The position numbers and the translations under genes are program-made. This document shows positions 3,315 through 37,341 of a DNA stretch of 37,462 nt, piece after piece (position 1 is the stretch's first letter; each line of letters starts with the position of its first letter). The notes under the pieces were generated by a model that saw nothing but the letters and a program-made list of their open reading frames with translations, was not told where the DNA came from and made no database searches. The DNA comes from a virus. The stretch lies in the IMG/VR virus record IMGVR_UViG_3300020202_000166, positions 1-37,462 of that record; one strand, given 5' to 3'.

Positions 3315-4151
<837 letters not shown>

Positions 4152-4954: not shown

Positions 4955-5172
4955 TAGAAATTAACATCGTTATCTGCGCCAAATTCGTCATACTTGGCTT
5001 GTTTCGACTCTTGTTTCTTTTCCTCATAAACATGAATCAAGGTTCCTGGCATGTGGTAAAGCTTGACGTATTGCTTACCGTTTTTTCCGACAAAGGTCTC
5101 GCCAATCCGCTTCCACGAAACCTTTTCTTCCCCATTAGATTCGTATTTTTCAGGCACACATAGATATTTCAT
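4954..5172 (-). CDS. hypothetical small protein (72 aa)
   Basis: The open frame extends to 5244, but I choose the ATG at 5172. It is preceded by AAAGGAAAAAGA, overlaps the end of the coiled-coil gene by only 23 bases, and gives a product starting MKYLCVPEKYESNGEEKVSW. The protein is rich in beta strands and charged residues and ends in an acidic tail (FGADNDVNF), like tails of ssDNA-binding partners. Function unknown; its location in the recombination operon suggests a role there. Confidence 0.6.
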   Translation of the reverse strand: MKYLCVPEKYESNGEEKVSWKRIGETFVGKNGKQYVKLYHMPGTLIHVYEEKKQESKQAKYDEFGADNDVNF

Positions 5173-6040
5173 TCTTTTTCCTTTCAAGTTGGAATTTGTG
5201 ATGACAAGAAGGACACTCAACTTGATTTTTAAGTAGCTCCGCAAGGCGTTCTTTTTCCTTACGTTCAGCGTCTAGCTTCTTTCTGGCTAACTCTTCAGCT
5301 TTTCGCTTTGCTTCTTCCGCTTTGGCTCTTTCCTCCGCAATCTTTTTTGCTTGATCTTCTTTTTCTTTACGGGCTTTTTCTTCCAAGGCACGTTTTTCAG
5401 ATTCAGCTTTAGCCTTTTCAGCATTTGCCCTCTCGCGTTCTTTAGCGAGGATAGATTCTTGCTTCTTTCGCTCTTCTTCCGCTTTAGCACGTTCAGCGGC
5501 TAATAAAGCTTCCTGTTTTTTGCGTTCTTCAGCGGCCTTTAACGCTTGCTCCGCAGCTTCTTTTTTAAGACGTTCGTTTTCTAATCTGATACGCTCCTGC
5601 TCCTCAGCTTCAGCCCTTTCCTTGGCTATTCGCTCTTCTTCCATGCGTTTTTCAATCTCAAGACGGATAGACGCTTCTTTCTTTTCTTGCTCAATCTCTA
5701 CAAAACGCTCCTGCTTATCTAGGTACTCTTCAATGGGAACAATCAACGCCTTTAGGACATTGGCGATTCCATCAATAGCCTTCCCCTCCCTTAAAGATTG
5801 TTCTTTAAGCTTCTTGCGCGAGCTCTCAACAGCAATGCGCTTTTCTCGTAAAAACAATCTCCCAGTCCTCGCCATCTGCATTTCTGCCGTTTGATCGGGT
5901 CTGCTAACCACAAGAGTTTTAGCCTTAGCCTCCCACTCTGCTGCAATAGCAAAATAGTCTTTGAAATTCTCTAAAATGTACTGAGCTTTTGAAGGTTCAA
6001 GTTGACTTTCTTTGACAATGACTTCTAATTGGTTTTCCAT
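5150..6040 (-). CDS. coiled-coil protein with DUF1351-like N-terminus and C-terminal zinc knuckle
   Basis: A 296-residue protein. Residues about 1-115 have the R-x-x-R-x-x-L-R-E-K-R pattern followed by a helix with R-K-K-L-K-E, typical of DUF1351-like proteins that sit beside phage recombinases. Residues about 118-270 form one long Glu/Lys/Ala coiled coil with heptad-like repeats. Near the C-terminus a CPSCHHKF zinc knuckle is present. It is coupled to the exonuclease by a TAATG stop/start overlap. It probably helps assemble the ERF/YqaJ recombination complex (inference from context). Confidence 0.7.
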   Translation of the reverse strand: MENQLEVIVKESQLEPSKAQYILENFKDYFAIAAEWEAKAKTLVVSRPDQTAEMQMARTGRLFLREKRIAVESSRKKLKEQSLREGKAIDGIANVLKALIVPIEEYLDKQERFVEIEQEKKEASIRLEIEKRMEEERIAKERAEAEEQERIRLENERLKKEAAEQALKAAEERKKQEALLAAERAKAEEERKKQESILAKERERANAEKAKAESEKRALEEKARKEKEDQAKKIAEERAKAEEAKRKAEELARKKLDAERKEKERLAELLKNQVECPSCHHKFQLERKKNEISMCA

Positions 6041-6639
6041 TATTTAATCCTTTCTACAACTTCCTCTAATTGCTTGCAAAAAACTTCAAGCTCAATTTCC
6101 AAAGCTTTGATAAATTTCTCATCCCTTTCAACCCGAACAATCAAAGGTTTAATACCCGGATAGTAAGAAATAAAATCCCACCACTTCCGACCCGTGACAA
6201 AAAGCTCGCCCTGGACTTGCTGGAAATAATCCATAGGAAGTTTGTTGTCTCGCAAATAACCAACATGAACCGCCATGCTAGGGCATTTGATCTGGATTCC
6301 ACCGTCTTCACCAACAAGACCATCCGGACTGCATGAGTATTTTTTATCTTCGTTCGCGTAACAAATTCCGACTTTTTGAACAACCGAGTCAGTGATTAGC
6401 TCGTAAAATTCTCTAGCTTCGGCCTCCACCTCGTTCCCTCTGTTCATGTACGCACTTTTAAAGCCTTCTTCCGTAGTTCCAGAAACCCTCTCCCCAGCAA
6501 GCTGATTAAGGTATTTCTCCGCTTGTTTTGAAGGCTCGCCCTTCGTAGTTATGATCTTGTCAAAACAGGAGGCTGTGGGGATTCCTCCTCTAGCAGCTCG
6601 CCACTCCTCGCTAAGTTGTTCGCAATCGAGAATAATCAT
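6040..6639 (-). CDS. YqaJ-family exonuclease (lambda Exo fold)
   Basis: A 199-residue nuclease of the YqaJ viral recombinase family (PD-(D/E)xK). Visible parts are the N-terminal SEEWRAARGGIPTAS segment, the helix with RGNEVEAEAREFYE (E70) and the core S104-P-D-G. The QIK triad at 116-118 stands where the family has E-x-K. The Glu-to-Gln change at 116 removes an expected metal ligand. The helix FQQVQGELFVTG is also typical. These enzymes resect double-stranded ends to give single strands for an annealing protein, here ERF directly upstream (4-base overlap). Confidence 0.88.
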   Translation of the reverse strand: MIILDCEQLSEEWRAARGGIPTASCFDKIITTKGEPSKQAEKYLNQLAGERVSGTTEEGFKSAYMNRGNEVEAEAREFYELITDSVVQKVGICYANEDKKYSCSPDGLVGEDGGIQIKCPSMAVHVGYLRDNKLPMDYFQQVQGELFVTGRKWWDFISYYPGIKPLIVRVERDEKFIKALEIELEVFCKQLEEVVERIK

Positions 6640-8712: not shown

Positions 8713-8735
8713 TCCCCCTTTTGGATTTAGGGGCC

Positions 8736-8776
8736 AAAAAAAAATGGCCCATCCAGGGTTGACCTAGATGAGCCAT
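8736..8776 (-). terminator. rho-independent terminator (proximal)
   Basis: On the minus strand a 10-bp stem (ATGGCTCATC with GATGGGCCAT, one G-U pair) is followed by nine T. Only about 24 bases separate its U-tract from the first start codon of the hydrolase/recombination operon. Confidence 0.85.
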
Positions 8777-8808
8777 AAAAAAAGCCCACCAGGATTGCCC
8801 TGGTGGGC
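8777..8808 (-). terminator. rho-independent terminator (distal, strong)
   Basis: A perfect 10-bp GC-rich stem (GCCCACCAGG / CCTGGTGGGC, 5-base loop) is followed on the minus strand by seven T. It is in tandem with the next terminator and would stop transcripts coming from the integrase/zinc-finger region. Confidence 0.92.
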
Positions 8809-8840
8809 CTCTAACATTTCCTAATTTTTTCTAACTACAA

Positions 8841-8872
8841 TCGGGGCGGCAGGATTTGAACCTGCGACGTCC
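8841..8872 (-). other. attP core: 3' end of a proline-type tRNA
   Basis: On the minus strand the sequence contains the T-arm GCAGG-TTCAAAT-CCTGC followed by the acceptor strand CGCCCCG and A. It matches the 3' end of bacterial proline tRNAs that start CGGGGCG. No anticodon arm or 5' half is present, so this is a fragment. It lies downstream of the integrase gene, as is usual for tyrosine integrases that insert into the 3' end of a tRNA gene and restore it. Exact core limits cannot be fixed without the host junctions. Confidence 0.85.
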
Positions 8873-8877
8873 TACTG

Positions 8878-9042
8878 TCAAACCCGATTAAGAGAGAAAA
8901 AAAGAGAGCGGTTAGAGGCCCTTGAGGGAGTAACGATTCCGACATGGGAGACAATCGGGCGAAAGTCTTTTGTGGAAACAAAACCCATGCCGGAAAACTT
9001 TTGCAAGGATTTGATCTTAACCGCCCGATTGGTTTTTTGCAT
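8878..9042 (-). CDS. possible small basic protein (54 aa) beside attP
   Basis: An ATG-started frame of 54 residues (MQKTNRAVKIKSLQKFSGMG...) that is basic and ends next to the attP core. A GGGAG lies about 12 bases upstream, which is long for a ribosome-binding site. Its position between the zinc-finger gene and attP would suit an excisionase or directionality factor, but no such motif is visible. The stretch also holds nested inverted repeats, so it may be a recombination-site arm instead of a gene. Confidence 0.3.
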   Translation of the reverse strand: MQKTNRAVKIKSLQKFSGMGFVSTKDFRPIVSHVGIVTPSRASNRSLFFSLNRV

Positions 9043-9060
9043 GTCAGGATTTTACTCCCT
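8908..9060. repeat. nested inverted repeats next to attP
   Basis: AGGGAGTAA at 8925-8933 pairs with TTACTCCCT at 9052-9060. CAATCGGGCG at 8952-8961 pairs with CGCCCGATTG at 9022-9031. GCGGTTA at 8908-8914 pairs with TAACCGC at 9018-9024, and CATGGG at 8943-8948 with CCCATG at 8984-8989. Some pairings exclude each other. They could be integrase or excisionase arm sites or an RNA fold. Confidence 0.6.
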
Positions 9061-9084
9061 TTCAAACTACTTTCAACAACAATT

Positions 9085-9204
9085 TTAGTCTTTTTTCAAC
9101 TGCCTTAAAGCCCAAGCAGCTTGACGGCATTTCCCCGAACAATACTTCTTCCAAGGAACCGTCTTTTCATACTTCTTTTTGCAAATCTCACAACTCGACT
9201 TCAT
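9085..9204 (-). CDS. 39-residue zinc-finger protein
   Basis: A frame from the ATG at 9204 to a TAA at 9085. The product starts MKSSCEICKKKYEKTVPWKK and continues YCSGKCRQAAW, giving C-x2-C ... C-x3-C, a compact zinc knuckle seen in many tiny phage proteins. It is followed by a basic tail. TAGGAG lies 7 bases before the start, and a promoter with a palindromic operator is just upstream. It could be a regulator, excision factor or nucleic-acid-binding accessory protein. Confidence 0.7.
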   Translation of the reverse strand: MKSSCEICKKKYEKTVPWKKYCSGKCRQAAWALRQLKKD

Positions 9205-10433: not shown

Positions 10434-12269
10434 TTAAAAGAAATCCCCTGTCAAAAGAGACATTTTTACATAAGTGTATTCATGGTTGGCATCAGGCCGT
10501 TCCCTTACTGGTCTTAATCTTATAATAGGCGCCCCCAAGAAATTAGGCCGACCGCTAAAAGTAGGGACATATCCTTTAGTATCAGGCACCCATCCTTTTT
10601 GAAAAGACCCAGTTCTTACTAAAAGTCTCTCCTTTTGCTTTACTTTCATCCTTGAATCTAAATACATGGTAGACGGCATAGCTGCATTAAATTTATGGTC
10701 GTGACCTGAGTTGCCAGTAATAAAGACATACCCATTTCTACGCGCAATTAGACTTTCGTTTTTTGTATGAATACACCAGACATCACCGCTGTAATGCGCT
10801 TTACTAGCTCTTATTCTGGAAAAAGGGATATCGGTTGTTGATCGCTGGCAATATCCAATAACCCAGCAGCCGTTTTTAAAGCCGCCTTTTTTAAAATATT
10901 TCCTTGTTCTATAACCATGAATTGCCAAAGCCCACTGTAATCTGTCTATTAATGATTCATCACCTGAATAATATGTTCCAGCCGTGGGATACCTTGCGTA
11001 ACCATCCCCCAAAACAAGATTTTTAAAGAAAATGTCAAATTGTCGCTTGCTTAACTTAAAAACCCAATCAGGGATATTCTTCTTATCAACATATCTAAGA
11101 ACAAGTCGAGCAGATGCTTTTCTAATATGAAAGCTCGTAAGGCCATCGCATTTAACCCAAGACGAATAATCGTATCCAAGCCTATCCAAAATACTTTTAA
11201 TAATAGCTACCTTTTCATGAGATTTTTGATTAATATCAATTCCTTGGCCACGCTGCTTATCATAAATTCTGAAATGGCCTTCCGCTATCAACCATCCAGT
11301 TAATGCTATTTCATCGTCGCTCAAGTGATATTCAGACTCAACTATTCCAGCTAACGGGATCTGTGCTTGACATTGATAATTTACAAATTCAGAAGCATCC
11401 TTTTTAAGCCAATAACCCATTTTCTTTGTTTTGCAATTTTTAAGTCGATAAATAACTCTGTGGTTTGGCGTTAATAACATATCGACATTGCTATTTTTTA
11501 TATGAATCATTTCACCTTTATACGGTTTTTGATAGACATCAGTAGCGGTATCTTCATATATTGATCCGTCTTTATATGAAAATACGGGGTCGCCTTTTTT
11601 AATTTCACCTATAGATTTCCACCCATCTAAAGTAAGGATTTGAGTAGTTTTATCCAAACACAAGTATACATCAGCGTCCCAAACTGCTGTCATATCTTCA
11701 AGAGCATTTAATGAAGATCCTATTCTTCTGCCTCCACCAGCTTTTTTACCGGCTGTATGATGTGCGTAAATATCAACCCCGACAAGATGCTTTTTTCCGT
11801 ACCTGAAAATAAGTCTGATAACAGAAACCCCACCTAGATATTTACACCTTAGGGAATCACACATTTTCATCGTTGAAGTTTGCCCAGAGTCAAATTGATA
11901 GTAGTGGTTCCCTTCAATTAAACCGACCGCTCTATCTTTCATGAATGAGATTTCATCGATAAACTCAAGTGTCCTTTTTGCCATCAAATCATCTAAGGTC
12001 TTGATTGTTGTATCGTGTAATTTAGCGTGATAAAAAGCCTCTCTTTCCGATGTTGAGGCTAGATCGTCGTAGTCTCCTAATCCTAAGTAATAAACCTTCC
12101 CAGTTTCTTCCTGAAGTTTTTTACAGTAGTTTAAATACCCTTTCCACCTGTCCACATCGCAGTTATGCGCGAAGCGGTGAACATCTGAAAATATGCACAA
12201 ATAATAGTCTTCGTTAAAATGCTTTATGGGGATCTCGAAACGATGCACAGTAAATAGTGAATCGCTCAT
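10434..12269 (-). CDS. calcineurin-like metallophosphoesterase interrupted by an intein
   Basis: The 611-residue precursor has metallophosphoesterase motifs in order: SDVH (D29, H31), GLGDYDD (D66), EGNHYY (N121, H122), YAHHTAG (H170, H171). After residue 203 the domain is broken by a 317-residue intein. It resumes at S521 with SGHDHKF, the final G-H-x-H metal motif. The spliced product would be 294 residues. Members hydrolyse phosphodiesters or nucleotides; phage versions may act on DNA ends or signalling nucleotides. The unspliced protein lacks the final GHxH motif in place, so activity probably depends on splicing. Confidence 0.88.
   Translation of the reverse strand: MSDSLFTVHRFEIPIKHFNEDYYLCIFSDVHRFAHNCDVDRWKGYLNYCKKLQEETGKVYYLGLGDYDDLASTSEREAFYHAKLHDTTIKTLDDLMAKRTLEFIDEISFMKDRAVGLIEGNHYYQFDSGQTSTMKMCDSLRCKYLGGVSVIRLIFRYGKKHLVGVDIYAHHTAGKKAGGGRRIGSSLNALEDMTAVWDADVYLCLDKTTQILTLDGWKSIGEIKKGDPVFSYKDGSIYEDTATDVYQKPYKGEMIHIKNSNVDMLLTPNHRVIYRLKNCKTKKMGYWLKKDASEFVNYQCQAQIPLAGIVESEYHLSDDEIALTGWLIAEGHFRIYDKQRGQGIDINQKSHEKVAIIKSILDRLGYDYSSWVKCDGLTSFHIRKASARLVLRYVDKKNIPDWVFKLSKRQFDIFFKNLVLGDGYARYPTAGTYYSGDESLIDRLQWALAIHGYRTRKYFKKGGFKNGCWVIGYCQRSTTDIPFSRIRASKAHYSGDVWCIHTKNESLIARRNGYVFITGNSGHDHKFNAAMPSTMYLDSRMKVKQKERLLVRTGSFQKGWVPDTKGYVPTFSGRPNFLGAPIIRLRPVRERPDANHEYTYVKMSLLTGDFF
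10710..11660 (-). mobile_element. intein with LAGLIDADG homing endonuclease domain
   Basis: Precursor residues 204-520. Block A starts at C204 (CLDKTTQILTLDGWKSIGEI), block B is LLTPNHRVIYR with the T-x-x-H motif, and dodecapeptide-like segments LTGWLIAEGHF and FFKNLVLGDGYARY mark the LAGLIDADG endonuclease. Block F is DVWCIHTKNESLIARRNG and the end is YVFITGN followed by Ser+1. The usual penultimate His is Gly here. The insertion point directly before the extein GHDH motif is a conserved catalytic site, as is usual for inteins. Confidence 0.9.
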
Positions 12270-28630: not shown

Positions 28631-29500
28631 TCATGTTTGAGCCCCAAGGAAGATTTCCTTGTAGCTCATATCGCTATCAGTCTTCTGTGGGTTCTTGGGA
28701 TTGATCTTTGGAGGATTGGTTTCTTTGGATTTATCCGCGCTCTTGAGAAGTTTTGACCGAAGCTGCGTCTCAAGTTCTCCAATAGTGGCATGTTTATAAG
28801 CTTCATCGAGAACTTGCATGTCGTTCCAATCCGGATGTTTTTTAGTGATGGCGTCAATAAAAACTCCCATCGCTTGATCTACTTCCGGAGTTACCTGAAA
28901 AGACTTATTCTCTTGTTGCTTTTTTGCCACCCAGGATTCCCAGGTTTTCTGAGACTCGGCACTTAGCTTCTGCATTTCACGTTCCTCAATGGACTGCGTG
29001 AATTTTGAAAGCTGCTCTTCGAGAGTCGCGATTTTCTGCTCTAAAGCTTGAGTGTTTGAGTCTTTAGCCTGGTTACTTGGTGCTTCTGGTTTAAAATTTC
29101 CTGACAAGATCGCATTGATAACTTCTTGAGCCTTTGGGTCCCGGTAATAACTTTGAACGAGTTTTCCAAGGGCCTTGATTTCATCAATTTGCGGTTGTCT
29201 TCCAAAAGATTCCTCTAAAGATTTCCTGAACTCAGAGATTTCCTGAGTTTTTTTAGTGTAGTCCTGTTGGCGAAGGTATCCTTTTTGCCATTCCAAAATT
29301 TCCGAGAGTTTCGCTTTTTTTCCCTCCTGCAAAGTGAACTCTGGATCTTGTGGAGCTGGCTGGACCTCTGCTTCAGGCTGCACTTCGTCAGTAGCTTGCG
29401 GGGTACTGGCTTCCCCGGCGAGTATCTCCCGGTATGAAGAGTCCTCAGAAGTGGCCGCCTCTGGGGTTGTTCCTTGCTCCGTTTCGATTTGCTCAGACAT
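28631..29500 (-). CDS. capsid scaffolding protein
   Basis: I start at the ATG at 29500 (GAAAGGGAAAAATCA before it) for 289 residues. The N-terminal third is acidic and low complexity (TPEAATSEDSS, PEAEVQPAPQDPEF), followed by the EGKKAKLSEILEWQKGYLRQ block and QDYTKKTQEISEFR common in phage scaffold/capsid assembly proteins, and a coiled-coil middle. It lies 11 bases upstream of the major capsid gene. It should build the procapsid and leave. Confidence 0.8.
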   Translation of the reverse strand: MSEQIETEQGTTPEAATSEDSSYREILAGEASTPQATDEVQPEAEVQPAPQDPEFTLQEGKKAKLSEILEWQKGYLRQQDYTKKTQEISEFRKSLEESFGRQPQIDEIKALGKLVQSYYRDPKAQEVINAILSGNFKPEAPSNQAKDSNTQALEQKIATLEEQLSKFTQSIEEREMQKLSAESQKTWESWVAKKQQENKSFQVTPEVDQAMGVFIDAITKKHPDWNDMQVLDEAYKHATIGELETQLRSKLLKSADKSKETNPPKINPKNPQKTDSDMSYKEIFLGAQT

Positions 29501-29545
29501 TGATTTTTCCCTTTCTGTGACTCCCTTGCTTCGAGGGTTGGTCAA

Positions 29546-29919: not shown

Positions 29920-30242
29920 TAGCCAGCCTCAACTAACCCCAATGCTTTAGCAGAACGTTTTTCATCTGACCTTGACTCCACCAATCCACCAAGACCAATA
30001 TTGAAATAAGGCTTAAAATCATTCAATTTAGTTTGTCGGCCAATTTCACACTGATGGCACGCTCTAACCTTGTAATTCTCAACAATCCAAATTCCATGTT
30101 CACAAAGCTTATGTTTTAAGTTGGTTCCGAACCTGACTTTTCTAGCCTTTTGGGCTCCAGTTTCGCCTCTTTGAGAATGAACCGCCATTTCAACAGCCTT
30201 ACTTTTCCCATATTTTTTAACCATATCCTGAAATGGAATCAT
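29919..30242 (-). CDS. hypothetical basic protein with Cys/His motif (107 aa)
   Basis: The first 40 residues are basic (MIPFQDMVKKYGKSKAVEMA, ARKVRFG), followed by CEHGIW-x9-ACHQC, a C-x-H ... C-x2-C layout that can bind zinc. It is translationally coupled to the portal gene (ATGA overlap). It could be a packaging accessory protein; no family was recognised. Confidence 0.6.
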   Translation of the reverse strand: MIPFQDMVKKYGKSKAVEMAVHSQRGETGAQKARKVRFGTNLKHKLCEHGIWIVENYKVRACHQCEIGRQTKLNDFKPYFNIGLGGLVESRSDEKRSAKALGLVEAG

Positions 30243-32020
30243 ACTCTTTGCGCTAGTCCTAATTCAGTTGCCAAGGGATCACGTTCTCCAGTGATAGCCG
30301 CTTCTTCTTGGGCAGGAGGTATGCCTTGGGGAGTATTCATAATCCCTAGAGCGTTCTGGAGGTCCATAATCCCTTGGTCAGCATTTCGGATTGCCATCGA
30401 ATCCATAAGTTTTTCAATCCAGAACTGGGCGTTTAATGTTTTCCCTGCTCTATTTAAGATTGGTTCTAATTTTGTAAGCATTCCCAGTGCGTCAATGATC
30501 TGGCGTCTGAATACATCTTTATTTTGGGCCTGCATGGACTCCACATCGACATCCACTATTACACTCGATGTAAATCCTTCTTTTCCAACCTCCTGAACTA
30601 TTTCTTCCTCAACCATCAATCCAGTATTAGGGTCTTGAACTTCGACCGTCTTTGTAACAGACATCGTGCCGTTTATCTGTGTAAGGATTCCAACAATATC
30701 CAGGACTATATCCTCGATAAAATCACGGACATCATCAATTCTTGCTTCTATGTCAATAGTCTCGCCAGTGGCAATAATCTTTGCTTCAGTAGCAGAGTCC
30801 GGCTTTGCGTCCTGTGCACCTCTTGTTAACCCACTTTTTGGCGCAAGCTCAGAAAGTAACTGCCTTGAAACAGTAAAGAAGTTTGTAACATCTTGATTGA
30901 CTTGAGCCCGTTCTTTCTCGTAAAAAAGTGTGGATATAGGGGTCCCTGCTTTATTGGAAACTCCAACCCACTCAAGATCATTATTTGATTTGAGTTTTTC
31001 AGCTTCCTTATCAGTTATTTTCCCTGAATCGTATATGGTTTTAGGATTACATCGTTTGACGTGGTTTAAATAAACCTTCCACCACTGATCTACAGCAGAT
31101 AACTGAGACTCCCATATCCAAGGATCTCCATTAGGGTAAGGAGAATCATCATCTAAGGGATTAAAGACTAGGAATTTAATAGGGTATCCAACATGCCCTT
31201 TGCTGTATTCAACCTGCTGAAGAGGGCTCGTGCAGCTCTTAGAAAAAACAAGAAGCTGATATTTCCCGTCTTTTTTCTTAGGTTTAATAAAACAGTAGTG
31301 AATTAAGACATATAACTCTTCAGAATCGTCCGTGATATCTGAGTTTTTGGAAATCTTGCTATATTTCTCACCTTGTAATCGGTCCCTTTGTGCCTGGTCC
31401 CAGTTTGGGACTTCTTTTGCCTCTTCGAGAGGCATGATAATGTCAAATCCGATCCAAGGAGAATCTTGGAAATCATAGAAATCAAAACCCCGTGGAAATC
31501 TAACTAAATCAGGGCGAAGTCTTTTGATATAAATATCATTCTCTAAAACAATTCTTTCCTGAGTAGGGACTGACTCACCAGTTATGGGATCAATCGTAAA
31601 TCCAGCCGGTTTATCATCGTAGATATAATCCGTATATACACACCCAAACCCGCCTAAATAAGCGTCCCAAATTGACCTTTCAATGGTCCTTTTTACTTTC
31701 AGGTCTTTTAGGATGTCATTGACCTTAACTTCCGTGTTTTCAACATAATCATGGTTTTGTTCTTCACGGGCCTTTAAATTGACATTCGGAGACTTGAAAT
31801 AAATGGAGTTTTTAAGGGCCGTTCCAATCGAATAGACAAGATTCACCTGTTTATGGCTCATCCTATCTGTATTTTTATTGCTAACTAGATGTTCAGATCG
31901 GAGTCTTTTCTTAGCGATTAGATACTTGAAAAGAAACTCCTGACGCATAAGCTTTTCGGAAGACTTAAACTTACTTATCCACTTTTCAACAATCAAATCA
32001 TCTTTTACTTCTTCAATCAT
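30239..32020 (-). CDS. phage portal protein
   Basis: A 593-residue protein with a helical start (EKLMRQEFLFKYLIAKKRLR), the tryptophan-rich core FDFYDFQDSPWIGFDIIMPL, a WESQLSAVDQWWKVYLNHVKR segment, a stem-helix region DVTNFFTVSRQLLSELAPKS and an acidic C-terminal barrel with VDVDVESMQAQ. This length and plan match dodecameric portals of short-tailed phages. It forms the DNA entrance vertex and docks the terminase, whose genes are directly upstream (8-base overlap). Confidence 0.88.
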   Translation of the reverse strand: MIEEVKDDLIVEKWISKFKSSEKLMRQEFLFKYLIAKKRLRSEHLVSNKNTDRMSHKQVNLVYSIGTALKNSIYFKSPNVNLKAREEQNHDYVENTEVKVNDILKDLKVKRTIERSIWDAYLGGFGCVYTDYIYDDKPAGFTIDPITGESVPTQERIVLENDIYIKRLRPDLVRFPRGFDFYDFQDSPWIGFDIIMPLEEAKEVPNWDQAQRDRLQGEKYSKISKNSDITDDSEELYVLIHYCFIKPKKKDGKYQLLVFSKSCTSPLQQVEYSKGHVGYPIKFLVFNPLDDDSPYPNGDPWIWESQLSAVDQWWKVYLNHVKRCNPKTIYDSGKITDKEAEKLKSNNDLEWVGVSNKAGTPISTLFYEKERAQVNQDVTNFFTVSRQLLSELAPKSGLTRGAQDAKPDSATEAKIIATGETIDIEARIDDVRDFIEDIVLDIVGILTQINGTMSVTKTVEVQDPNTGLMVEEEIVQEVGKEGFTSSVIVDVDVESMQAQNKDVFRRQIIDALGMLTKLEPILNRAGKTLNAQFWIEKLMDSMAIRNADQGIMDLQNALGIMNTPQGIPPAQEEAAITGERDPLATELGLAQRV

Positions 32021-32933
32021 CGTTATCTCTGTACTGGGTTCTCTCTAGCGCCTCGAAATAAGCTACCGTGTTTTTCTTTTTCGGCACTGACACCGGAACG
32101 GGGTCATCCGGTAAACTTAAAATCCAGTATTTGAACGCATCCCACGCGTGGTTATTTACCTGCTTGATCGTTTCCTTCTTTCCCCGATTCTGCTCAACGG
32201 AAGGACTAAAATCATCCCATCGAAGGTTCTTAATCTCATCCCATAACGGAAGACACGTTTTAAATATCTTTAGCCTAGGGTCTGCCTTCGGTGTCCGGAT
32301 CTCTTCACCTTTTTCATCAATCCGGATATCGAATAACATTCCGATGGTTCTATCCACGGCAGAAATGTCATCGGTACGCCCCTTGATAAAACTGATGCCC
32401 TCATCAGCAAATAACTTTTGCTTTGAGGTGTAACTTCCGTCCTTTTGTGCATCCGTTTCGGTCCATATCGAAGGGTCTGCATATCGAAAATCAACTCTTG
32501 AGACCCACGGGGACCGTTTTATGAGTTGCACTTGCGTCGGGATCTCATAACCGGACCCATACGCACAATAAGTTATGTACTTCTCCGAATCCGGCCCGAC
32601 AGTCCCCTCAATGTATGCAAATGGGTTGCTCTTCCCCCAATCGTAACCGCCGCCAATTTGCCACCATTCAGGAACATCAAACGGATTAATCAGAATCTTG
32701 TCCTCTAGTTCTTCAATCCCATCAAATATTTTCCGTCCGGCTGCGGCCTTGAAGTTTATTTCCATTTCCCTTTGCCACTCGGGTGAACGCATTCCGCCTT
32801 TATAGCCTTTAATCTCTCTTGATAACCATTCACGGCCCTTTGGCGTGGATGGGTCCTTATCACTATCCGCGGTATAATGCACACGGGCAACCATGTAGCC
32901 GGACGGTGTTTTTCTAGTAAGTAGTCCCTTCAT
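32013..32933 (-). CDS. large terminase, nuclease domain (split reading frame)
   Basis: A 306-residue C-terminal half of TerL with an RNase H-like nuclease: GGYDWGKSNPFAYI (first Asp), RYADPSIW (second Asp) and NNHAWDAFKYWIL (third Asp). It begins at the ATG at 32933, overlapping the ATPase frame by 20 bases in the +1 phase; an in-frame TAG lies just upstream. There is no clear ribosome-binding site. Cuts concatemeric DNA during packaging. The split may be natural, need frameshifting, or be an assembly error. Confidence 0.85.
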   Translation of the reverse strand: MKGLLTRKTPSGYMVARVHYTADSDKDPSTPKGREWLSREIKGYKGGMRSPEWQREMEINFKAAAGRKIFDGIEELEDKILINPFDVPEWWQIGGGYDWGKSNPFAYIEGTVGPDSEKYITYCAYGSGYEIPTQVQLIKRSPWVSRVDFRYADPSIWTETDAQKDGSYTSKQKLFADEGISFIKGRTDDISAVDRTIGMLFDIRIDEKGEEIRTPKADPRLKIFKTCLPLWDEIKNLRWDDFSPSVEQNRGKKETIKQVNNHAWDAFKYWILSLPDDPVPVSVPKKKNTVAYFEALERTQYRDNDD

Positions 32934-33648
32934 GCACTAGCTCGCAAAAGTAACCTTCATTCGCTGAACTGACAGCTGTAAATCTCCCGCCGCCCTTAAT
33001 ACATGCCTGCACTGCTCCAACAGCACCTTGAAACTCCGGCTGAAATGCAGCTTCGTCGCTGAATAAACCCGATGGAACTTGTGACCGAATCTGATCTCCG
33101 CCTTCCGGTATTCCAACAATGTAGCTCTTCTGCGATTCAAACTGGATCTTGCAGAAGGAAACGTCTTTCGCGTAATCAAAGCCGCGCGGCCAAAGAAACC
33201 TCGGCTCATTCTCAAGAATAAAGCCGGCCCGGTCTCGAACAAGATAGTCTGCATCGTCCTCTTTCTTGGACTGAAAATAAATATAGCGCCCATAATGAAA
33301 TTGAGCATCCCACAGAAAAAGCGCACTGAATAACCATGAACACAAAATTTGGCGGCTTTTAGGAACCAAAAGAAGCGGTTCGTTAAGCCATAAATCCACC
33401 AGGGCCGAAAGATATTCCTTTTTCGGTAACCGTTTAATCGGACTCTCCTGGTCATGTGTGTCGAGCGTAAAAACATATCCGTCATGCCTATACCCATCAC
33501 CCCATAACCAATATTTAGGATTCTTTGCACAGCGAGCCCTTTCAATTTTCTGTAGCGTGGAATCCGTTTTTAGCTTTGCCAAAAATTCGCGTTTCGTAAC
33601 TTTCAAGCTCTGACTCGGCAAGCTCAAAGAATCGGTCACTGAACTCAT
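32914..33648 (-). CDS. large terminase, ATPase domain (split reading frame)
   Basis: A 244-residue N-terminal half of TerL. The adenine-binding/Walker A area is LLLVPKSRQILCSWLFS (a degenerate P-loop usual in phage TerL), Walker B is SGLFSDEAAF and the coupling motif area is FTAVSSANEGYF. The frame then reads ELVHEGTTY and stops. The start at 33648 overlaps the upstream gene by 107 bases; TTG codons further in are other options. It powers DNA translocation into the procapsid. Confidence 0.87.
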   Translation of the reverse strand: MSSVTDSLSLPSQSLKVTKREFLAKLKTDSTLQKIERARCAKNPKYWLWGDGYRHDGYVFTLDTHDQESPIKRLPKKEYLSALVDLWLNEPLLLVPKSRQILCSWLFSALFLWDAQFHYGRYIYFQSKKEDDADYLVRDRAGFILENEPRFLWPRGFDYAKDVSFCKIQFESQKSYIVGIPEGGDQIRSQVPSGLFSDEAAFQPEFQGAVGAVQACIKGGGRFTAVSSANEGYFCELVHEGTTY

Positions 33649-34387: not shown

Positions 34388-34464
34388 TTGCTTAGGAATA
34401 ATGCCTAAATAAATGATGGTAATTCCCCTGATGTTTTCAGAGTTTACGCAATATTCCTAAGCAA
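34388..34464. promoter_or_regulatory. 13-bp perfect inverted repeat, candidate operator pair
   Basis: TTGCTTAGGAATA (34388-34400) is repeated as its exact reverse complement TATTCCTAAGCAA (34452-34464). A third half-site CCTAA lies at 34404-34408, forming TTAGG-x7-CCTAA with the first. The region is AT-rich intergenic DNA between the terminator and the next gene, which suits a late-promoter control region. No protein is known to bind it. Confidence 0.65.
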
Positions 34465-34503
34465 TTAAATTTTAATATGGAGTTGAGTTATCGCAAGGGG
34501 TTT

Positions 34504-34755
34504 TTAACCGATTTTTTTCTTGGAGTGGATTGTTTTATAATTGCGGGTGTCTTTTGGTTCTTTCGCGGAAATTATTTTTATTACATAATCTAAGCCTTTA
34601 TGCTCTAAAGCTACGCTTAAATACTGAAAAGCAGCTGTAACACTTATCCCCACCGATTGTCGATCTATTCCGTGTGCTTCATGTTGTTGAGAGATAATAT
34701 ATTCTATCGCCTCGTATTTTTCTTTGTTATATACACTGGCAGGAATATCAATCAC
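34504..34755 (-). CDS. hypothetical protein (83-85 aa)
   Basis: A helical protein with DIPASVYNKEKYEAIEYIIS and AAFQYLSVALEHKGLDYVIK. Start is GTG at 34755, or TTG at 34761; AAGG lies upstream, 9 or 3 bases away. It overlaps the end of the 41-residue gene. Family unknown. Confidence 0.55.
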   Translation of the reverse strand: MIDIPASVYNKEKYEAIEYIISQQHEAHGIDRQSVGISVTAAFQYLSVALEHKGLDYVIKIISAKEPKDTRNYKTIHSKKKIG

Positions 34756-34873
34756 TTTCAAGAACCTTATCTAAAGACTTGTAGTTTCCTTGGTATTTAG
34801 GCAGGCCCCATGACCAAAATAAAGGGTTAGGGCCTTCTTCTTCAATTTCTAACTTCGGGCAGGGGAGGGTCAT
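34748..34873 (-). CDS. small acidic protein (41 aa)
   Basis: The product MTLPCPKLEIEEEGPNPLFW continues SWGLPKYQGNYKSLDKV. The ATG overlaps the upstream stop (ATGA) and AAGGAA precedes it. Aromatic and Pro-rich with no known motif. Confidence 0.5.
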   Translation of the reverse strand: MTLPCPKLEIEEEGPNPLFWSWGLPKYQGNYKSLDKVLESD

Positions 34874-35013
34874 TCCTTCCTCTCCGAGCCCCCGCTGGCT
34901 TTGTAGAGGGCAACCCTGCTGGCATCAGTCCTCGATGGAAGAACTAAGCATATTTGACATCTGCAATACGGAGCATGACCTACTGGTTGAATAATTTCTT
35001 CTAATGGACTCAT
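34870..35013 (-). CDS. small Cys-motif protein (47 aa)
   Basis: The product MSPLEEIIQPVGHAPYCRCQ continues ICLVLPSR, giving C-x-C-x2-C, a partial zinc knuckle, then a basic tail. Overlaps its upstream neighbour by 4 bases, with AGGAGA upstream of the ATG. Function unknown. Confidence 0.55.
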   Translation of the reverse strand: MSPLEEIIQPVGHAPYCRCQICLVLPSRTDASRVALYKASGGSERKE

Positions 35014-35213
35014 ACGCTTTCTCCTAGGTCGTTACTTTGCAATATCATATTGATGGCTGTGCATAATTCGCATTGATACAAGCCTTCGCAATCTTTTAGG
35101 CTTATATGCCACTCTCGCACCGCTTTCAGGGTGGCTTCGGTGGCAAAATCTACTGGACAGGCTTGATCGTAAAGCGTAGTTGCTATCTCTCTAATCCGCT
35201 GTTTTAGGTTCAT
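35010..35213 (-). CDS. hypothetical protein (67 aa)
   Basis: MNLKQRIREIATTLYDQACP with helices and C-x2-C (YQCELC). The first 23 bases overlap the exported small protein gene upstream. No family recognised. Confidence 0.55.
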   Translation of the reverse strand: MNLKQRIREIATTLYDQACPVDFATEATLKAVREWHISLKDCEGLYQCELCTAINMILQSNDLGESV

Positions 35214-35358
35214 ACATCTTCTCCGCTATTTTCTCTAATGCGTTTGCGATTCGGCATTGTTGTTTCGCTTCAGGAAAACCACGCAAATTGAAGCGTTCAC
35301 AATCCTCCGCGAAAACATTCCCACTCACTAACATCATTACGATCAAGATTAGTTTCAT
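35191..35358 (-). CDS. small exported protein (55 aa)
   Basis: MKLILIVMMLVSGNVFAEDC is a Sec signal peptide with cleavage after VFA. The mature part has two cysteines (C20 and C35) and is otherwise helical (NALEKIAEKMYEP). One of several tiny exported proteins here. Possible periplasmic effector or exclusion factor. Confidence 0.6.
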   Translation of the reverse strand: MKLILIVMMLVSGNVFAEDCERFNLRGFPEAKQQCRIANALEKIAEKMYEPKTAD

Positions 35359-35364
35359 GGTTCC

Positions 35365-35580
35365 TTATCGCTCATGCTTTCCTTTCTTCCTCTTGGTGGA
35401 GGGAATGGCGTAGATTATGGTGCAGGGGACAGCTACATGCCCTTCGCAATAATCCCAAGAAAGATTTCCGGCAACCCAATCGGTATGTTCTTTTGTTCTA
35501 TAAATTCTGTCCAGTAAAGGGCCAGTGAACTCGTTTATCACGATCCACGCCTTAACCTTCCTCACCCTCGGCTTGCTCAT
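35365..35580 (-). CDS. hypothetical basic protein (71 aa)
   Basis: MSKPRVRKVKAWIVINEFTG with beta strands and a basic tail (STKRKKGKHER). It overlaps the upstream gene by 4 bases. No family recognised. Confidence 0.55.
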   Translation of the reverse strand: MSKPRVRKVKAWIVINEFTGPLLDRIYRTKEHTDWVAGNLSWDYCEGHVAVPCTIIYAIPSTKRKKGKHER

Positions 35581-35864
35581 ACTTCATCACAGACTGTTTG
35601 ATATTGCGGGATGTGTATAAACGTTGTCATCTTTCCGATTCTTTGCGGAATCAGCATGTTGTGACTAAACACTCTTCTACACTCTTCTTTTGCATGCCCC
35701 ACAGCAGGGAAGAGAAGGAGGAGGATCAATATTCCAAAATACATTCTCGGCCAATAAATAATCTTCTCAAACCAGTTAAGATCTCTTACTTCGATATCTT
35801 CCCAATGAACTTTTGTCATTTTCCAACCATCACTGAATCTGCTTAATTGCCATTCTCCGTCCAT
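35577..35864 (-). CDS. membrane/exported protein (95 aa)
   Basis: A central hydrophobic segment (about 42-58, MYFGILILLLLFPAVGHA followed by KEEC) looks like a signal anchor or late signal peptide preceded by a polar ~38-residue cytoplasmic part. Two cysteines lie after the segment. The ATG at 35819 is an alternative start. Same operon as the basic protein. Confidence 0.5.
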   Translation of the reverse strand: MDGEWQLSRFSDGWKMTKVHWEDIEVRDLNWFEKIIYWPRMYFGILILLLLFPAVGHAKEECRRVFSHNMLIPQRIGKMTTFIHIPQYQTVCDEV

Positions 35865-35962
35865 TCTCCATCATCTCTATATGTTTTAAGATATACTCGG
35901 CTTTAGAATTATCGGTTTAAACATATATAATAAGGTTGACAGTCCATTAAGTTTAGGTTTAC

Positions 35963-36300
35963 AAAAAAGCTGGCTCGGCCCCGCCACCGGAGGACTTTCA
36001 CCTCGTTCGCCGAAACTCACACCAGCTTTAACTTTGGGCTGACTGGCAGTTTGTCTGCAAGATTAGCGTTTCCCTACTCATGGTCATGACTCCACCCCTC
36101 GGTACTTAAACGCCTGTTATTACAGGTTCTTAGGCTACAACGCCACAGCCAGCCTTTAACTCTGCCGGGGGATAGCTCTAGCATCTTCCTTTATCCTGAA
36201 TACATCAGGCCCGGCATAACTCATTCCTTGAGCGGCAGGAGTCGATGTACCTGCTACCCTCTGAAACGAGAGCCACAGACAGGGAAAACTTATTTACCAT
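35963..36300 (-). ncRNA. candidate large structured RNA, family unknown
   Basis: The region 35865-36421 has no convincing gene. On the minus strand it can fold into many perfect stems: 36163-36169 with 36210-36216; 36195-36199 with 36205-36209; 36037-36045 with 36146-36154 (9 bp, one G-U); 36066-36071 with 36108-36113; 36113-36117 with 36122-36126; 36235-36239 with 36250-36254; 35990-35993 with 36001-36004. A stem at 35968-35973 with 36022-36027 is followed by six U, like an intrinsic terminator. I do not recognise RNase P, tmRNA, 6S, a group I intron or a riboswitch. Confidence 0.65.
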
Positions 36301-36421
36301 GCTTCCAAAACACACTCTTACACCTTCCGCATACATAAAACCCAGGCTGGATTGCCTTAAAATAAGTATGAATACCAATAAAACAAAGCAGCCTTTTCAT
36401 CTTCCCTCCACTCATGCGGGG

Positions 36422-36526
36422 TTACTCAGATTCATTTACCCATTGCTGTAAATAATAAAGCCCATCATCAATCATCTGATTCATGCGGTTAACAAAATCT
36501 TCCTGACTTTCGGTATAAGTTCCCAT
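36422..36526 (-). CDS. small acidic protein (34 aa)
   Basis: GAGGGAGAT precedes the ATG at 36526. The product MGTYTESQEDFVNRMNQMID continues DGLYYLQQWVNESE, helical and acidic. The good ribosome-binding site and the position right after the 104-residue gene support it. Confidence 0.55.
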   Translation of the reverse strand: MGTYTESQEDFVNRMNQMIDDGLYYLQQWVNESE

Positions 36527-36533
36527 ATCTCCC

Positions 36534-36848
36534 TCACTCCTTTATTTGAGACTGCTTTTTGTTCTTTAATGCTCTAAAGTAAAAAACGCCTTGGATTTCC
36601 TCAATAGCACCTTGGTAGCAAATAATATCGTTTTCAATTTCTTGAGACTTTTCCATTCTGTCTTTCGTGGAAATGCTTAAATACTCTTGCCTTTCCTTCG
36701 CCGTTGTGTCTGATAATGGTTTAAGCATCCAAAGCTCATCTGACTTTATTCTAAGTTTGTTTATTTTGTCCCTGAGTTTTTCCAGAGCATCATTAATGGA
36801 TTCAGCTATAATCTCATCCCGTTTGCTCGCATAATTGAAAGCCTTCAT
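36534..36848 (-). CDS. hypothetical coiled-coil protein (104 aa)
   Basis: A Lys/Glu-rich helical protein (ALEKLRDKINKLRIKSDELW, TKDRMEKSQEIENDI) with heptad-like spacing. Four-base overlap with the upstream gene. No family recognised. Confidence 0.6.
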   Translation of the reverse strand: MKAFNYASKRDEIIAESINDALEKLRDKINKLRIKSDELWMLKPLSDTTAKERQEYLSISTKDRMEKSQEIENDIICYQGAIEEIQGVFYFRALKNKKQSQIKE

Positions 36849-37174
36849 TCTCCCTTACCTGCTTTCGCTTCTGCTAGGATTGATTGGACTAAATGCTTAA
36901 TGACGTTGTCGAAGGCGTATTCGATAGCTTCAACTCTTTCAGCGTAATCGTCATCCCCACCGCAATTTATCGGAGGTCTTTTATATCTTCGCTCAATTTC
37001 TGCATTACCTATCTCCGCAGCCCTCTGAAGTCCGCGAATGTAGGAGGCGCGAAGTTGTTCAGCCAGTTCATTAGCCGCATCTTCCCGACAAGCCTTTCTT
37101 GTTCCGGTATCGTTTAAAGAACCTACGTTCCACCATTCACAGAAATCCTTAGCGATCTTCGCTTCTTCCATCAT
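36845..37174 (-). CDS. hypothetical helical protein (109 aa)
   Basis: A helical protein with KIAKDFCEWWNVG, AANELAEQLRASYIRGLQRA and INCGGDDDYAERVEAIEYAF. The ends suggest a small early phage protein. It overlaps the downstream coiled-coil gene by 4 bases and follows the zinc-ribbon gene closely. Function unknown. Confidence 0.6.
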   Translation of the reverse strand: MMEEAKIAKDFCEWWNVGSLNDTGTRKACREDAANELAEQLRASYIRGLQRAAEIGNAEIERRYKRPPINCGGDDDYAERVEAIEYAFDNVIKHLVQSILAEAKAGKGE

Positions 37175-37185
37175 GGGGTGGTCCT

Positions 37186-37323
37186 TTACTTACCGCACTT
37201 ATCGCATTTGGTTTTCTTTAACACTTTCAAAGTTGCACAATCAATACACTGATTGAATGCTTCTAGAAATCTTTTGTCTTTATCACGCTTTGGCTCATTC
37301 CCGCACTGTTGGCATTTCTTCAT
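37186..37323 (-). CDS. two-knuckle zinc-ribbon protein (45 aa)
   Basis: The product starts MKKCQQCGNEPKRDKDKRFL and continues FNQCIDCATLKVLKKTKCDKCGK; three C-x2-C pairs are visible. A likely nucleic-acid or protein-binding microprotein. GGGGGTAGG lies upstream of the ATG. Confidence 0.6.
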   Translation of the reverse strand: MKKCQQCGNEPKRDKDKRFLEAFNQCIDCATLKVLKKTKCDKCGK

Positions 37324-37341
37324 CCTACCCCCTAGCTTCCT

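Follow-up and report, generated by a model that had tools for sequence, protein, structure and literature searches.

The noncoding stretch at 35963..36288 on the minus strand of the virus record IMGVR_UViG_3300020202_000166 is best read as the untranslated tail of a run of small ORFs that ends in an intrinsic terminator and lies upstream of the terminase operon; we put the probability of this reading slightly below one half (roughly 0.48). The window analysed was the whole record of 37,462 bases. Under this reading, transcription of the very small minus-strand ORFs would continue into the stretch and the transcript would halt at a putative intrinsic terminator at about 36029-35963. The terminator would separate the small-ORF unit from the ORFs toward the terminase, portal and capsid operon. 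Most of the stems inside the stretch would be those that any sequence of like composition forms, and no separate RNA function would be needed.

On the minus strand, the small ORFs were followed by the terminase region (33805-32013, minus), a portal-like gene (30239-32020, minus), a scaffold-like protein (28631-29545, minus; PHROG 3927) and the capsid protein, which was 24-36% identical to the capsids of several phages. A lysis-type hydrolase, a tyrosine integrase and replication-type genes were found beyond the capsid gene. The stretch was located on the strand of the terminase genes, approximately 2.2 kb upstream of the ORF taken as the terminase small subunit. Small ORFs were packed tightly upstream of it on the same strand, consistent with the tail of an operon. 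The last of these (36289..36399, minus; read from the sequence) comprised 36 codons with a CxxC motif (MKRLLCFIGIHTYF...YVCGRCKSVFW) and an RBS-like GGAGGGAAG in front; its codon score was -0.14 and it had a weak match to PHROG 15735 (E 0.075). The noncoding stretch began directly past its stop. The preliminary description had placed the boundaries at 35963-36300; the former was retained, whereas the 5' boundary at 36300 falls inside this ORF, near its end (36399-36289). The next downstream ORF (95 codons; 35577..35864, minus) was the first of a run of small ORFs toward the terminase genes and had no homolog among the phages searched; neither this ORF nor a downstream ORF of 71 codons had family matches.

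As separate observations in the same region, the terminase large subunit of the window was present as two overlapping minus-strand ORFs (32914-33648 and 32013-32933), each matching a terminase PHROG in its own right, versus a single 436-codon ORF (4976-6286) in the relative L026; a frameshift, a sequencing error or a programmed event is a possible cause of the split. A 13-bp inverted repeat (TTGCTTAGGAATA/TATTCCTAAGCAA; 34388-34464) was located upstream of the terminase genes. Past it in minus-strand order, at about 34387-34330, AGGCCG...CGGCCTTTTTTT makes a strong hairpin that resembles a terminator. The minus-strand tile at 34492 had a folding z of -3.4, and L026 carried a terminator-like hairpin (about 4053-4100) at a place similar to that of the window's 34387-34330 hairpin.

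The preliminary description had noted approximately 340 bases without a gene, and the codon scores bore this out. There was no convincing gene in about 36288-35865, a gap of 424 bases without a gene-like frame between the CxxC ORF and the 95-codon ORF. Over the RNA candidate, sliding codon-usage scores stayed at or below 0 in almost every frame, and no conserved protein frame covered the stretch; the lack of a coding frame supports an untranslated tail. The GC content of the gap was 0.47, the highest of the larger gaps, compared with 0.29-0.46 in the other gaps of more than 100 bases in the window; a value this high among this genome's noncoding DNA speaks against an operon tail. A tail of approximately 260 untranslated bases is also long for a compact phage and counts against this reading, though gaps of 350-580 bases occur elsewhere in the window.

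It is improbable that the stretch encodes tiny overlapping proteins of 36 and 19 codons and not an RNA. The possible 36-codon ORF (36074..36184, minus) had AGGAAG just upstream, and the possible 19-codon ORF MTMSRETLILQTNCQSAQS (36028..36087, minus; read from the sequence) was located behind GAGGGGTGGAG, so that both overlapping frames had RBS-like sequences. Moreover, neighbouring small ORFs that look acceptable were also scored poorly in codon usage. However, both frames were otherwise unsupported: the codon score of the 36-codon frame was -0.16, with no match among PHROGs, that of the 19-codon frame was about 0 (for its 17-codon part), and no protein relative was found.

The gap probably ends in an intrinsic terminator, as judged from its sequence. 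The longest perfect stem in the region was formed on the minus strand by AAAGCTGG and CCAGCTTT (35963..36029; z -2.47, p 0.02), with 8 perfect pairs enclosing a 48-base loop with further pairs inside, followed by T-rich DNA. A GC-rich stem and a T run, the features by which intrinsic terminators are recognised, were both present at these positions, and the terminator-like 3' end of the preliminary description was confirmed at 36029-35963 on the minus strand. The simple terminator scan covered loops of 3-8 bases only; this stem, with its 48-base loop, was therefore unlisted. Intrinsic (Rho-independent) terminators after phage operons likewise consist of a stem and a T run that close a run of same-strand genes, and the stem and T run found here support the operon tail. 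Compared with the usual phage terminators, the candidate was a long stem-loop with a 48-base inner part and not a short hairpin.

A terminator-like end on a GC-rich, noncoding stretch also speaks for a real structured RNA gene of an undescribed class, approximately 250-330 nt long, with a multi-branched centre and a 3' terminator, whose transcript would be made during infection and function as RNA. We consider this possible, though doubtful. In its favour, the predicted domains were tidy. A hairpin TGCCGGG...CCCGGCA (36163..36216, minus) had a pair probability near 1 (z -2.15, p 0.035), and a predicted multi-branched domain with small hairpins inside (36037..36154, minus; z -2.29, p 0.02) was closed by the helix GGCTGGCTG/CAGTCAGCC with a pair probability of 0.89. 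The p values of the sub-domains (0.035, 0.02 and 0.02) are weak evidence because the domains were hand-picked after the fact, with the selection uncorrected.

The preliminary description had reported at least eight perfect stems, nested for the most part. We counted 12 perfect Watson-Crick stems that were 6 bp or longer, a number not above chance: dinucleotide shuffles had 8.9 ± 3.0, with 26 of 150 shuffles reaching or exceeding the region. Among 110 other tiles of this strand with the same length, 67 equalled or surpassed the region in their number of 6-bp stems. Nine short hairpins were observed, compared with 6.4 in shuffles (equal or higher in 24 of 150). The minimum free energy of the whole stretch was -116.4 kcal/mol (z -1.68) and 5 of 100 shuffles folded as well. 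The plus strand had a z of -2.23, about equal to the minus strand relative to its own shuffles. In a coarse scan of the whole window, at least 15 of 113 minus-strand tiles were below the z of -2.0 of this region; the attP-like region near 9082 led the scan with a z of -7.2. The stretch was weakly more structured than chance at best, and this marginal folding supports the operon tail. The large structured RNA of the preliminary description was left without support, because the stem count and energy were near chance and no homolog was available for covariation; such an RNA is possible, and the structure statistics do not favour it. The main value of the case is one of calibration, showing that, unless a shuffle control or homologs accompany it, a tally of perfect stems from a GC-rich gap of a phage is weak evidence of a structured RNA.

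Relatives of the virus were searched for in IMG/VR and in deposited phages, using the portal, the capsid, a 395-aa virion gene and a neighbour ORF as queries. One independent close relative was recovered, together with one distant contig and distant isolates. The close relative was represented by two contigs, which did not differ across the 21 kb compared, and its capsid was 65% identical to that of the window. Searches of phages, plasmids and 398 genomes sampled from one phylum yielded no copy of the stretch itself, and an exact 18-base core of it was absent elsewhere in IMG/VR. No search returned an alignable homolog, hence there was no alignment for covariation, which counts against an RNA gene. 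The absence of copies elsewhere, and the fact that the sequence was not kept in a relative with so similar a capsid, favour an untranslated operon tail. The 16-mer of the GAGGTGAAAGTCCTC hairpin was carried by ten IMG/VR contigs and was rejected as a family marker: in none of the ten did similarity to the window extend past the motif itself, and in two of them (L014 and L018) it was inside the coding frame of the same protein. These matches are most simply explained by chance. Two matches to GGTGGAGTCATGACCATGA in bacterial genomes were also rejected as homologs, neither being similar beyond the motif.

The gene order of the close relative was comparable, with a homolog of the window's HNH gene (31% identity) upstream and the terminase genes downstream. 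Between them, L028:6191-6540 was GC-rich and without a convincing gene, at the equivalent map position and on the equivalent strand. It was the most GC-rich 320-base tile in the examined part of the relative's genome. A long-range helix closes its first 200 bases, which had a z of -3.2. This slot speaks against an operon tail and for an RNA gene. However, it was rejected as a homolog of the stretch: alignment showed no similarity (67 of 300 shuffles scored as well), blastn returned nothing, and a covariance model built from the central domain of the window's stretch had no match in it. No U-tract terminator was seen in L028:6191-6540, and it had no match in Rfam or deposited phages. The shared GC-rich slot may be a coincidence of variable cassettes, because none of the window ORFs in 34504-37325 was matched in the close relative. 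It is unlikely that the two slots hold the known members of a new class of approximately 300-nt RNAs that have evolved past alignability, kept in a fixed position with the HNH/replication genes on one side and the terminase operon on the other, in a rare podovirus-like group. A real RNA class here would extend the short list of structured phage RNAs of unknown role.

The whole window had no Rfam match at gathering scores. At E values up to 10, nothing was found in the stretch and two chance-level matches were found elsewhere in the window, in agreement with the preliminary description, which could name no matching RNA. The models of GOLLD and ROOL had no match to the stretch at the gathering score or at E 10, nor had those of group I and group II introns at E 10. 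The stretch is therefore not a HEARO/omega-RNA, an intron, GOLLD or ROOL, and the lack of an Rfam family is in line with an operon tail. GOLLD and ROOL are large RNAs of phages and prophages, and many GOLLD members are longer than 800 nt (PMC12286853). The candidate is likewise noncoding, phage-borne and without a known role, but spans only approximately 330 nt or less. GOLLD and ROOL also frequently adjoin tRNA genes, whereas the candidate had no tRNA island nearby; ARAGORN found no tRNA in the window.

The stretch had a superficial motif resemblance (CAGCC... GGCGA) to the HEARO/IscB omega-RNA (RF02033). This assignment was rejected, as RF02033 had no match in the stretch at E 10 while six phage IscB loci used as a positive control all matched it at 72-144 bits. 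The six loci had no useful similarity to the window. Furthermore, an IscB-type ORF lies directly downstream of HEARO/omega-RNA, in contrast to the 95- and 71-codon ORFs downstream of the candidate, and no IscB-like nuclease was noticed among the window's ORFs.

The position of the stretch, upstream of the terminase operon and on its strand, would also suit a leader whose conditional termination controls the late operon downstream, acting either by a terminator/antiterminator switch or as a site recognised by a phage antitermination factor. The lambda PR' leader/6S RNA (Q/PR'-tR') and the HK022 put RNAs are untranslated, with a terminator upstream of late genes, and the candidate similarly combines an untranslated RNA and a terminator ahead of such genes. 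In addition, GCTGGCT (36153-36147) could pair alternatively with the 3' arm of the terminator, AGCCAGC, in a fold only 1.9 kcal/mol less stable. This alternative fold carries no weight, because an equally good one was available to 112 of 200 sequences whose upstream part had been shuffled, and the switch was rejected as being at chance level. Unlike in the lambda and HK022 systems, no antiterminator gene was recognised, and no sigma-70-like promoter was found just upstream on the minus strand. Several ORFs also separate the stretch from the terminase genes. We regard such a leader as very improbable.

By far the strongest minus-strand fold of the window was at 8713-9110 (z -6.2; best tile -7.2). 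This region, beside the integrase gene, had a tRNA 3' end resembling tRNA-Pro (CGTCGCAGGTTCAAATCCTGCCGCCCCGATT), repeated AATCGGG/CCCGATT segments, long inverted repeats and two T-tract terminators. The attP-like tRNA end had no exact copy in 398 sampled genomes of one phylum. The region is probably a phage attachment site in a tRNA gene, together with terminators. An intein carrying a LAGLIDADG-type domain (PF14528, PHROG matches) apparently splits a phosphoesterase-like protein (10434-12269, minus), and in a DNA methyltransferase (3315-4151, minus) four glycines come after ten consecutive cysteines. Another phage contig, IMGVR_UViG_3300010413_000009 (L012), encoded a Ro60-like protein of 571 codons. 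Approximately 300 GC-rich, strongly folding and apparently noncoding bases followed this gene (about 714-1045, minus); they had no Rfam match and are possibly a Y-like RNA.
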